This document shows, piece after piece, positions 2,944 to 47,212 of a DNA stretch of 64,000 bases. The notes under the pieces are model-generated. The model saw nothing but the letters and a program-made list of their open reading frames with translations. It ran no database searches and had not been told where the DNA came from. The position numbers were made by a program, and so were the translations under genes. Origin of the DNA: Candidatus Aramenus sulfurataquae (lineage in GTDB: Archaea; Thermoproteota; Thermoprotei_A; Sulfolobales; Sulfolobaceae); contig ASRH01000002.1 in assembly GCA_000565255.1 (NCBI GenBank), positions 186,001 through 250,000 of the forward strand, given 5' to 3'. Position 1 is the stretch's first letter. Every line of letters begins with the position of its first letter.

Positions 2944-4149
2944 ATGAGGCGTAATTGGTTTACGACGAGTCGTAATTTGCGATTTTTGAGGCTGTTTGGG
3001 CCAGCGTGGCTCGTTATGATGGCTGACATGGACGCCAGCAGCACTTTGGGGGCAGCGGAGACAGGGGCCGTATTCAAGTACGGGTTGGTGTGGTTCCTCC
3101 TCCTATTGACAATCCCCCTCTACTTTGTCCAAGAGGTCTCTGGGAGGATTGGGGTAGCAACGGGAAAGGGATTTGGCGAGATCATAAGGGAGAACTACAG
3201 CAAGAGGGTGGCGGTATTGCTCACCATTCCCATGTGGTTGACTGACATGTTGACGTACGTGGTGGAGTATCTAGGTATAGCGATAGGGCTCAGCATGGTG
3301 GGCATTCCCCCGGTAGTGTCGATGCCCATGGTCTTCCTTCTCCACATCTTCATAGTGACAAAGAGGAAGTACATCCAGGCGGAGAAGTACCTCCTGTTGA
3401 CCTCGTCCGTAATGGTAGTCGCCTTTGTCCTAAACTTGGCTGTTAGGGGCATTAAGCCCTACACCCCCTTCTACTTTGTACCCTCCCCAGAGTTCCTATA
3501 CCTGCTGGCCGTTAACGTTGGAGCAGTGATTATGCCGTTTATGCTATTCTTTCAAGCGTCAGCCACTGCAGAGAAGGTCAAGGCAATTAGCATAGTTAAG
3601 ACATGTGAGAAACAGGAGGCTGTGTCCCACGTTAGGAAGGAGACCTTCTTGGGGGCCTTGGCAACTGAGGGGCTCATGGTGTTGGTAGAGATGGCCGTTG
3701 CAGGGATAGATCCATCCACAAATTTCGCCTCAGCCAAGGATCTGGAGAACGCCCTTTTCGCGATAGCCGGGACTTACTCTCCTTTGATCTTTGGTATTGG
3801 GTTAACGAGCGCTGGATTCCTTGCCTTGGTCGTCATCTCGCTAGGGAGCGCGTGGGGGCTTTTGGAGGCCTTGGGGGTACCGAGGGACAGGGCATTTGTG
3901 GTTTACGTATTGGAAAGTGTACCGGCCCTCGTAGTTTCCCTAGCACTTCCTGCCTCGGAGATGCTAGGCTTGTTGCTAAACTTGTTAGTGGCTTTTGTCT
4001 TCGTGCTCATAGGGCCAGCCGTTGTGATGGGGTTGATAGCAAACAACGAGAAGGTAATGGGGGAACTGAGGAATACCTTCTGGCAAAACTTGGCCTATTG
4101 GTCGAGCTTAGCATTCGTGGTGACATTTGGGATCCTAGCGGTAGTGTGA
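2944..4149 (+). CDS. NRAMP-family divalent metal transporter, divergent metal site
   Basis: This 401-residue membrane protein has about 11 predicted helices and NRAMP/SLC11 features. An unwound first helix holds ADMDASSTLGAAETGA where NRAMPs have DPGN, and the sixth-helix motif is IMPFMLFFQAS where they have MPHN. The family couples Mn2+ or Fe2+ uptake to protons. Here the Asp and the TM6 Met are kept, but the usual Asn of DPGN aligns with Ala and the His of MPH is Phe. Ion choice or proton coupling may therefore differ, as in NRAMP-related Mg2+ transporters. The start is ATG 2944, from TATA spacing. It is divergent from a small winged-helix regulator. Confidence 0.8.
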   Translation: MRRNWFTTSRNLRFLRLFGPAWLVMMADMDASSTLGAAETGAVFKYGLVWFLLLLTIPLYFVQEVSGRIGVATGKGFGEIIRENYSKRVAVLLTIPMWLTDMLTYVVEYLGIAIGLSMVGIPPVVSMPMVFLLHIFIVTKRKYIQAEKYLLLTSSVMVVAFVLNLAVRGIKPYTPFYFVPSPEFLYLLAVNVGAVIMPFMLFFQASATAEKVKAISIVKTCEKQEAVSHVRKETFLGALATEGLMVLVEMAVAGIDPSTNFASAKDLENALFAIAGTYSPLIFGIGLTSAGFLALVVISLGSAWGLLEALGVPRDRAFVVYVLESVPALVVSLALPASEMLGLLLNLLVAFVFVLIGPAVVMGLIANNEKVMGELRNTFWQNLAYWSSLAFVVTFGILAVV

Positions 4150-38672: not shown

Positions 38673-39611
38673 ATGTACCAGCCACCCTACAACCCCTATG
38701 GTGCGAACCCTTACGGCAGTCCCAACTGGGGAAACCCGAACATGCAGTTTTTGATGTGCCAGCAGTCTTCAGGCCTAGGCGGGAAGACGCAAGTGATCCC
38801 CGTCAATTACCCAATAAACCTGCAGTACGTAGCGCAGGAAGTAGTTATGTTCCTTATGGGTCAAGGCTTTCAAGCTTTTCCGATGGTTGCTCAGAACATG
38901 GCAGTAATTCAAGCCCAACACTCAAGTCTCCTAGGCACGCTTACTGACAGCAACAGGGCCTATACGATAAAGATATGTCAAGGCCCAGGGGTTGTCGTAG
39001 TTGAGACTGGCATATCTAACCTCCTCCAAGACCTCCTTGTTGCTGGCGGGACAGTGTTCTTAACGGACGAAGTGCTCCACAGCAAATTACTTACAGCAGC
39101 TGGAGGAGGCCTCGACGCATACGAAATCTACAAGGAATACGCCCAAGAGGAGCAGTTACTTAACATGATAACAATGCTGATAGTCAATAGTCCTCCAGCT
39201 TATCCTCAGGGATACGGTCCCCAACCAGGGCAACAAGCCCCATACGGTCAGCCCTACCCACAGCAGGGGTATTATCAACCTCAGCCCTACCCCCAGCCTT
39301 ACTCTCAGCCCTACCCACAACAGCCCTACCAGCAACCACCACAGATTCCCCCAACACAGCCTCAAGCTTCGCAAGCCCAGAGCCAGAACGTCCAGCCAGC
39401 GTCGCAACAGACGCAGAGACCTCAAGTTAAGAAGGTAAAGTGCTGGAAGTGTGGGACTGAGAACGACGAGGGAGCGAAGTTCTGCTACAACTGCGGCGCC
39501 TCGTTACAGCCAATAAAGTGCCCCTCTTGCGGTGCCATAAACCAGCCTGGGGCAAAGTTCTGCTATAACTGCGGTGCGAAACTCTTGGAGCCTCAAGCCT
39601 CAAAGCAGTAG
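38673..39611 (+). CDS. Double zinc-ribbon protein with Pro/Gln/Tyr-rich linker
   Basis: This ~312-residue protein has a short low-complexity N-terminus (QPPYNPYGANPYG), a folded middle (~45-165, YPINLQYVAQEVVMFLMGQ), a long linker built of imperfect QPYPQ repeats (~170-250), and two C-terminal zinc ribbons (CWKCGTENDEGAKFCYNCG and CPSCGAINQPGAKFCYNCG). The layout resembles archaeal proteins in which ribbons tether a partner domain; the middle domain is unknown. ATG 38673 is preferred over TTG 38667, since a TTTATATATT element lies ~22-32 bp upstream. Confidence 0.75.
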   Translation: MYQPPYNPYGANPYGSPNWGNPNMQFLMCQQSSGLGGKTQVIPVNYPINLQYVAQEVVMFLMGQGFQAFPMVAQNMAVIQAQHSSLLGTLTDSNRAYTIKICQGPGVVVVETGISNLLQDLLVAGGTVFLTDEVLHSKLLTAAGGGLDAYEIYKEYAQEEQLLNMITMLIVNSPPAYPQGYGPQPGQQAPYGQPYPQQGYYQPQPYPQPYSQPYPQQPYQQPPQIPPTQPQASQAQSQNVQPASQQTQRPQVKKVKCWKCGTENDEGAKFCYNCGASLQPIKCPSCGAINQPGAKFCYNCGAKLLEPQASKQ

Positions 39612-40171
39612 CTTAGTCCGTTTTTGAGCACTTCTGGAGAAAAACCGAAAAGGGCCACTTTCCTTTCTTTGTGTCCCACGTATATGCCGAGGAGGAGCTT
39701 GACTACAACCTTGTGGGCGTCACTCTGCCCCACGATCCCGTCCAGCTCTTTACAGCCCAAGGGGATGAAGTACTTGAACATGGTGTCCACGCGGGTGAGG
39801 TTCTTTAAGCTCACTGCCATCCTACAGAACGTTACTACCCTCCTGAAGGCCTCGTCGCTCAACTTCTTCCTGCAGTTCTTGAGCACTGTGTCGTTTATTA
39901 CGTCGCCCGCTGTTACGTAGGGGCCTACCTTGAAGTCTGGGGAAGGGAGAACCTCGACGTCGCTTGAGATAATGATTAGTTCCAACTCGTTTAGGTCAAA
40001 AGCCTCGGAGAACGTGGATCTAAGGTTCTGCCTAAAGGAGGACTTAGAGCTGTTCGCCCAGACCAGCATAGCTATTGCGTACTTCTCCTCAGCTTGCAGT
40101 ATGGAGGAGGACTTAGTCTTGGCCAAAAGTTCTAACACTTCTCTCTTTACGTCCTCTGCGGTAAGTCCCAC
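39593..40171 (-). CDS. Conserved hypothetical protein, mostly helical
   Basis: This 192-residue soluble protein starts at GTG 40171 (GLTAEDVKREVLELLAKT). It contains helices with YAIAMLVWANSSKSSF, a short strand LELIIISSDVEVL, and a Cys-containing late helix (RRVVTFCRMAVSLKNL). No family is recognised. Its promoter TATA (TTTATATTC, ~40193-40201) lies between it and two upstream C/D box RNAs on the same strand. Its end overlaps the zinc-ribbon gene by 19 bp. Confidence 0.6.
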   Translation of the reverse strand: MGLTAEDVKREVLELLAKTKSSSILQAEEKYAIAMLVWANSSKSSFRQNLRSTFSEAFDLNELELIIISSDVEVLPSPDFKVGPYVTAGDVINDTVLKNCRKKLSDEAFRRVVTFCRMAVSLKNLTRVDTMFKYFIPLGCKELDGIVGQSDAHKVVVKLLLGIYVGHKERKVALFGFSPEVLKNGLSYCFEA

Positions 40172-40220: not shown

Positions 40221-40277
40221 ACTTTCAGAACTACTGTCTATTTCACCTTTCAAAACTCGGCAAACTCATCATCGATT
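40221..40277 (-). ncRNA. C/D box guide RNA (second of a tandem pair)
   Basis: On the minus strand, C box ATGATGA (40272-40266) is followed by 12-nt guide GTTTGCCGAGTT, D' box TTGA (40253-40250), 3-nt spacer, C' box GTGAAAT (degenerate), 11-nt guide AGACAGTAGTT and D box CTGA (40228-40225). The D' guide complements AACUCGGCAAA, which I recall as a conserved archaeal 23S rRNA stretch; methylation would fall on the C of CUCGG, five nucleotides from D'. The second guide's target is unknown. Confidence 0.65.
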
Positions 40278-40298
40278 CCAGATTGTAGCGTAAGGTTA

Positions 40299-40355
40299 AA
40301 AATCAGACGCTGGCGAAGTCATCACAGCTCAGGAGCATGATCGCTCATCACGTGA
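40299..40355 (-). ncRNA. C/D box guide RNA (first of a tandem pair)
   Basis: On the minus strand, C box GTGATGA (40351-40345), 12-nt guide GCGATCATGCTC, D' box CTGA (40332-40329), spacer GCT, C' box GTGATGA (40325-40319), 12-nt guide CTTCGCCAGCGT and D box CTGA (40306-40303) are followed by five T. All four boxes are canonical and both guides are exactly 12 nt. The RNA starts a few bases after the stop codon of the 40358-41587 gene, so it may be processed from that transcript. The D guide pairs with UGGCGAAG, a core found in 16S rRNA. Confidence 0.85.
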
Positions 40356-40357
40356 TG

Positions 40358-41587
40358 TCATAGGAGAAAGGACGCGAAATAGCCCTTTCTCCTCAGAGCG
40401 GAGAGTAGAAACTCCCTCTTCTTCACTTTCTCCGCAAGAGGACAGTCAACGCACTCCTTAACCTCGTCTGACCTCTCGTATACCTTAGAGTACCAGAAGG
40501 ATATGGGGTCTATCACGGATATGACGTTATTGTTCACTCCCTTAACCATTGGCAAGTCAAGGGGGCCCATGGAGTGTAGCTCTATGACGTCCTTCAGCAC
40601 CTCCCTCCCGTTGCTCTTGGAAAGCAGGAGGTTTACGAAACCGCTCATTGCCTTGTCGTAGTCCTCTAACTTTAAGCTCCCATCCCTGGAGGTTAGGGTA
40701 AAGGAGGAGAAGACGTAGTCGTTTACCCTGAACTTGCCCTCCTTGTGGGTTGCCACTATGTCCACGCTCTGGAGCTCTACAATTTCCTGTCCCTTTACGA
40801 AGAAGCCTACATACAGCCCGTTGTTCTTATGGGGGAAGGAAAGGAACTCCACGGTCTCCGTCCTCACAGTGCCCTTACTGCTCAAGGACAGGAATCTCCC
40901 TACGCTCTTATTCATCTCCACGTTCATGAACTTTCCCTTGCCCTTTGTCTCTTGGTGAACGAAGATCGCAGTAAAGAAAGTGAAGGATCCCTCTGTGCTA
41001 AAGGGGTTCCCTAGTTTTGGGTCGAGCTTAACCGTGGAGAGGACTGAGTAAAGCGATTTGGCGTCCAAGTTTACAGGGGTTTTGGTTCCGTCAACCTTAA
41101 CCGGGGCCTTTACTACGAAGTCCACCTCTACAGTCCCGCCTACCTCGGGAACGAATGAGAAGAGCTTCCCGTTGTCCGTTATGAGGGGGATTAAGTGGTA
41201 AAAGCTGGGGAGAGACTTCAGCTCCCTTACCTTTTCTTCCAAGTTCACCTCCTCTTTTTCCCTCTTCTTCCCCTCCCTTCTTGGCTCCCTCTTTGGCACG
41301 CACTCGGGGAACATTGCTGCATTGGAAAGCTTCAGTTCCACTACGTCCTTGCCTATGGCTTCCTTTACCTCGTCCAAGAACTCCAGGATTGCTCTGTGAA
41401 AGGTGGTCTTGTTGAATTCCTTCCTAAAGTGCTTGACTTCGCCGTCGCTTGTACAAACGTAGGCGGAGAAGGAGAACTCGTCCTCCTTGGTCAATATAAT
41501 TGGCACGTTGTCTTGGGTCACCAGAACTGCAACTGAGCCGTTTTCAGCGTGCTCTACGATGAACGAAAGGGTCTCAAACGGGTTCAT
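40358..41587 (-). CDS. Conserved hypothetical protein, 409 residues
   Basis: This soluble protein is not recognised. The N-terminal ~95 residues (FETLSFIVEHAENGSVAVLV) form an alpha/beta unit, followed by a highly charged linker (REPRREGKKREKEEVNLEEK). A large beta-rich region follows (KLFSFVPEVGGTVEVDFVV; FLSFPHKNNGLYVGFFVKGQ). The C-terminal part has a Cys pair in VKECVDCPLAEKVKKRE that could bind metal. Two C/D box RNAs follow its stop directly. ATG 41587 lies 18 bp after a weak AT-rich element, close to the MscS gene. Confidence 0.6.
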   Translation of the reverse strand: MNPFETLSFIVEHAENGSVAVLVTQDNVPIILTKEDEFSFSAYVCTSDGEVKHFRKEFNKTTFHRAILEFLDEVKEAIGKDVVELKLSNAAMFPECVPKREPRREGKKREKEEVNLEEKVRELKSLPSFYHLIPLITDNGKLFSFVPEVGGTVEVDFVVKAPVKVDGTKTPVNLDAKSLYSVLSTVKLDPKLGNPFSTEGSFTFFTAIFVHQETKGKGKFMNVEMNKSVGRFLSLSSKGTVRTETVEFLSFPHKNNGLYVGFFVKGQEIVELQSVDIVATHKEGKFRVNDYVFSSFTLTSRDGSLKLEDYDKAMSGFVNLLLSKSNGREVLKDVIELHSMGPLDLPMVKGVNNNVISVIDPISFWYSKVYERSDEVKECVDCPLAEKVKKREFLLSALRRKGYFASFLL

Positions 41588-47146: not shown

Positions 47147-47212
47147 AAAGGGTGATGAGTTTTCGGGGAGTGAAAGCCGGTGATCGGCTTTCAGCGGGCT
47201 GATCCCCCTTTA
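47147..47212 (+). ncRNA. C/D box guide RNA, both guides matching 23S rRNA
   Basis: C box GTGATGA (47152-47158), 12-nt guide GTTTTCGGGGAG, weak D' box TGAA (47171-47174), 5-nt spacer, degenerate C' box GTGATCG (47180-47186), 12-nt guide GCTTTCAGCGGG and D box CTGA (47199-47202). Flanking AAAGG and CCTTT can close the ends. The guides complement CUCCCCGAAAAC and CCCGCUGAAAGC; the cores CUCCCCGAAA and GCUGAAAGC are, as I recall, conserved 23S rRNA segments. Part of the RNA could also fold as a 9-bp hairpin (TGAAAGCCG with CGGCTTTCA). Confidence 0.75.

Follow-up and report, generated by a model that had tools for sequence, protein, structure and literature searches.

Archaeal C/D box sRNAs are a well-described group, and passages of PMC7994747 and PMC3491384 already describe how they work and that they occur in clusters and as dicistrons. 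Sulfolobus acidocaldarius possesses 61 C/D box sRNAs, as listed in Table 1 of PMC4644070. The methylation target of these RNAs follows the N+5 rule, according to a passage of the same paper, and passages of PMC4644070 and PMC7994747 place a methylation hotspot at helix 61 of domain IV. Orphan guides are documented for C/D sRNAs, and a site just past a stop codon is common for archaeal members, in the portions of PMC7994747 consulted. A passage search of a paper on the S. acidocaldarius ribosome (PMC10516650) returned nothing on methylation.

We analyzed a 64,000-nucleotide stretch of Candidatus Aramenus sulfurataquae DNA, referred to here as the window, from a genome assembly of 1.80 Mb in 46 contigs. 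An earlier note had described a C/D box RNA composed of ATGATGA, a 12-nt guide, TTGA, 3 nt, a degenerate C' box, an 11-nt guide and CTGA, and every one of these elements was found in place on the minus strand. This RNA was designated RNA2, and the C/D box sRNA upstream of it RNA1. The features of the locus are as follows.

40303 to 40351, minus strand: RNA1, predicted C/D box sRNA upstream of RNA2 (C box from 40351, D box end at 40303)
40273 to 40302, minus strand: spacer of 30 nt with TTTTTAACC, representing the T-rich end of RNA1, a TATA-like element of RNA2, or both
40225 to 40272, minus strand: RNA2, predicted C/D box sRNA with C and D boxes included, located by its box motifs
40266 to 40272, minus strand: C box of RNA2, ATGATGA, read from the sequence
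40254 to 40265, minus strand: D' guide of RNA2, GTTTGCCGAGTT, 12 nt, complement of the organism's own 23S rRNA at 1832-1843
40250 to 40253, minus strand: D' box of RNA2, TTGA
40247 to 40249, minus strand: AAG, the 3 nt between the D' and C' boxes of RNA2
40240 to 40246, minus strand: C' box of RNA2, GTGAAAT, degenerate
40229 to 40239, minus strand: D guide of RNA2, AGACAGTAGTT, 11 nt, probable orphan without a convincing rRNA or tRNA target
40225 to 40228, minus strand: D box of RNA2, CTGA

The C box of RNA2 matches RUGAUGA and its D box CUGA, as in C/D sRNAs. The D' box TTGA conforms to NUGA, not to CTGA, and the C' box GTGAAAT retains only RTGA; in RNA2 homologues, the C' box consists of RTGA followed by variable bases. 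Both guides fall within the roughly 10-12 nt of C/D sRNAs, and at least one of them, the guide beside the D' box, pairs with rRNA. The genome also encodes fibrillarin and Nop in adjacent genes, as a host of such RNAs should. The distance between the two RNAs had been given as 21 bases, a figure that includes flanks, and the interval 40278-40297 reported with it amounts to 20; the box-to-box gap is 30 nt.

A strict C/D motif was present at two places in the window, namely RNA1 and RNA2, and in 40 versions of the window generated by a first-order Markov model the mean was 0.0 and the maximum 0, although this control flatters the motif, which was drawn up with both RNAs already seen. Folding of RNA2 alone gave no stable structure (z 0.91), and neither RNA1 nor RNA2 folded better than shuffled sequences. 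The lack of a stable structure on folding alone is usual for C/D sRNAs, and structure prediction is uninformative for such RNAs. The sole extra place in the window found with a looser motif was 47152-47202 on the plus strand, where a C/D-like RNA carries GTGATGA, GTGATCG and CTGA in this order. The D guide of that RNA, GCTTTCAGCGGG, pairs at 12 of 12 positions (11 Watson-Crick, one G-U) with the organism's own 23S rRNA at 2030.

The target of the D' guide of RNA2 was sought in the organism's own rRNA. The guide pairs without interruption at 12 of 12 positions with the 23S stretch AACUCGGCAAAU, which starts at 1832 and ends at 1843, through 11 Watson-Crick pairs and one G-U pair. The earlier note had described the guide as complementary to a conserved archaeal 23S stretch, and the alignment with the own 23S rRNA confirmed this at 1832, except that the last base is U instead of C, making the twelfth pair a G-U wobble. 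Only one of 200 shuffled D' guides scored as high against 23S and 16S rRNA, a figure uncorrected for multiple testing, as the comparisons covered four guides and two sets of targets. The N+5 box C/D rule points to C1836 of 23S rRNA as the predicted 2'-O-methylation site of this guide. In an alignment, C1836 corresponds to A1672 of E. coli, and we take it to be located in helix 61 of domain IV. The core of the target, GGGAACTCGGCAAA, is unchanged in 17 of 17 23S loci including the own one, these loci having been picked from 30 as able to span the target site.

We propose that the C/D and C'/D' boxes of RNA2 would form a k-turn and a k-loop that bind L7Ae, and that RNA2 may assemble with L7Ae, Nop5 and fibrillarin into an sRNP. 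The D' guide of this sRNP would pair with AACUCGGCAAAU at 1832-1843 of 23S rRNA, and fibrillarin would 2'-O-methylate C1836, the nucleotide paired with the fifth guide position ahead of the D' box. We estimate a probability of about 0.93 that RNA2 is a Sulfolobaceae member of the archaeal C/D box sRNAs that directs methylation of 23S C1836, with transcription, sRNP assembly and methylation predicted from the DNA sequence. RNA2 would thus add to a Sulfolobaceae genome a well-supported predicted guide that is unmatched by Rfam thresholds, and it names 23S C1836 as the site.

The conservation of the C box and D' guide was examined beyond the window. Within the order, 62 of 147 genomes contained the pattern RTGANGNRTTTGCCGAGTNNNGA, in which the C box is followed by TTTGCCGAGT and NNNGA; within the family, 16 of 22 did. 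The reversed pattern was found in 0 of 147. The exact pattern was not present in 85 of the 147 genomes, which means that not all of them have the guide in exact form, although a missing pattern does not equal a missing RNA, and the pattern, requiring the C box ahead of the guide, is blind to any use of this guide next to the D box. A stricter pattern used in a broad scan of genome contigs matched 19 contigs, all 19 archaeal by title, including Thermococcus, Aenigmatarchaeota, Heimdallarchaeota and Calditenuaceae. Among 67 distinct loci, the D' guide was constant, as expected of a guide that belonged to the search pattern, and the spacer between the D' and C' boxes was variable.

An Rfam scan of the window brought no family to its gathering score, and the absence of any annotated family over its cut-off would fit RNA2 being a chance string with no RNA gene. 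This explanation is contradicted by the conservation across archaeal lineages and by the match to the 23S target, and we consider it extremely improbable.

The guide GUUUGCCGAGU with a C box occurs in Thermoproteota, Thermococcus, Aenigmatarchaeota and one Heimdallarchaeota contig, and its genomic setting varies among a spacer, a locus of its own and a tRNA intron. It is conceivable and, in our judgment, doubtful that this combination of C box and guide is ancient in archaea and has been retained by descent. Were it true, the guide would rank among the most widely shared archaeal methylation guides and would mark a ribosomal position where methylation has long been favoured; otherwise, the finding is a routine annotation.

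At an Aenigmatarchaeota locus (L077, 1099-1233, plus strand), the C box and the 23S guide lie within a 61-nt intron of tRNA-Thr(CGU) called by ARAGORN, and the Rfam tRNA match spans the whole stretch. At another locus (L080, about 3247-3269, minus strand), inspection by eye suggests a tRNA-Met-like gene interrupted twice, by an intron in the anticodon loop that contains the guide RNA and by an insertion in the T arm; neither ARAGORN nor Rfam called this gene.

We also compared the D guide of RNA2, AGACAGTAGTT, with possible targets. Its best score against the own rRNA (23S and 16S) was 8.5 of 11, equalled by 127 of 200 shuffles, and its best score against the own tRNAs was 8.5, equalled by 81 of 200 shuffles. 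The D guides of six relatives, compared with their own 23S rRNAs, had no shared site. Throughout the 67 distinct loci, the D guide is unrelated between genera, while the D' guide stays. The D guide is identical in the sister species, which would fit a role in guiding methylation as well, whether of another target or with mismatches. Such a second target is nevertheless unlikely, given the shuffle results and the unrelated D guides of other genera, and conservation between the sister species is about equal over the whole region. The D guide of RNA2 is probably an orphan or a fast-evolving half of the RNA.

RNA1 is likewise a predicted C/D guide, with tRNA-Leu in place of rRNA as its target. Its D guide pairs at 11 of 12 positions with tRNA-Leu(UAA) and tRNA-Leu(CAA), and two of 200 shuffles were as good in a test covering 42 of the 44 tRNA loci (L054 and L057 were left out due to short flanks). 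The D guide points to U44 of tRNA-Leu(UAA) in our own numbering. The D' guide of RNA1 fits ten adjacent positions of tRNA-Leu(UAA) and tRNA-Leu(CAG), a result equalled by 105 of 200 shuffles and thus not significant. Both guides of RNA1 may be directed at tRNA-Leu(UAA), only the match of the D guide being above chance. A 16-nt match to the RNA1 D guide at another place in the genome (G000:C17, also G001:C20) was rejected as a target; it lies within what resembles, by eye, a ParA-type coding sequence and was taken as chance.

We then considered how RNA2 might be transcribed. RNA1 and RNA2 are on one strand, 30 nt apart, and the stop codon of ORF 40358-41587 directly precedes RNA1. The sister species has the same order of RNAs, with identities of 47/49 for RNA1, 46/48 for RNA2 and 24/30 for the spacer. 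This arrangement is consistent with a single dicistronic precursor, perhaps including the upstream mRNA, whose ends would be trimmed around the sRNPs, and clusters and dicistrons of archaeal C/D sRNAs are in print (a passage of PMC7994747). An upstream C/D motif was found at two of the 67 distinct loci, both from the species of this genus, with a background of 2 in 388 windows, and the tandem was not seen at the other 65 loci with a looser C/D motif, which argues against a joint precursor. The strict motif recognizes only 6 of 16 family homologues, so C/D neighbours may be missed. A C/D-like motif is located downstream at three other loci. Of the segments compared between the two species, the spacer shows the least conservation, and a TATA-like element at about − 30 is also present in relatives without RNA1; both observations speak against the joint precursor, which we regard as a tentative possibility.

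The same spacer may instead contain a promoter for RNA2, with TTTTTAACC, about 30 nt upstream of the C box, serving as a TATA element and as the T-rich terminator of RNA1. TTTTTAA lies about 30 nt upstream of the RNA2 C box and is kept in the sister species, so that the T-rich element is found in both species of the genus; it is also found at − 31 in a relative of another genus (G005), and a further three genomes from the genus of G005 have related T-rich stretches (L011, L130 and L131). A TATA-like word in this region ahead of the C box was detected at 7 of 14 family loci vs. 2.67 expected from shuffles, the 14 being scored out of 16 after L014 and L015 were dropped as near-copies of L013. 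The presence of such a word in only half of these loci, with six of the seven belonging to two genera, weakens the case for a promoter, as does the spacing, which would put the start nearly on the C box and leave little 5' flank. As the TATA-like element is common to relatives without RNA1, RNA2 may have its own promoter, a reading to which we give nearly even odds. The evidence from the TATA-like element slightly favours this predicted promoter, although the same T-run could end RNA1.

On the other side of RNA2, CTTTATATT was noticed by eye about 25-30 nt ahead of the GTG start of ORF 39593-40171 (minus strand). This suggests, on inspection by eye, that the ORF is expressed as a leaderless mRNA from its own promoter just past RNA2.

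Finally, we compared both RNAs with known families and systems. A full-text literature search with the guide letters gave none related by title among the matches listed. The best Rfam matches were sR9 for RNA1 (30.7 bits against a cut-off of 36) and RF01150 sR11 for RNA2 (29.8 bits, gathering score 39). Both are archaeal C/D sRNA families, and RNA1 and RNA2 score below their thresholds. The consensus D' guide of the sR11 model best fits the 23S site of RNA2 (10.5/12), whereas the top sR11 matches in relatives, two of them over the cut-off, are at other loci and differ in sequence. An sR11 search at a lax E-value matched S. acidocaldarius but also E. coli and B. subtilis, and was thus uninformative.

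RNA1 and RNA2 resemble the clustered and dicistronic archaeal C/D sRNAs and the tRNA-sRNA precursors described in passages of PMC7994747 and PMC3491384 in that two guides are located near each other on the same strand. They differ in that the tandem, predicted from the DNA sequence, was seen in this genus only. RNA2 shares with the C/D sRNAs of S. acidocaldarius the order of boxes, the guide lengths, a D' guide that pairs with 23S rRNA and has an N+5 target, and a host encoding fibrillarin and Nop. In contrast to them, the predicted RNA2 has a degenerate C' box and one probable orphan guide. With these features, RNA2 belongs to the well-known class of archaeal C/D guide RNAs.
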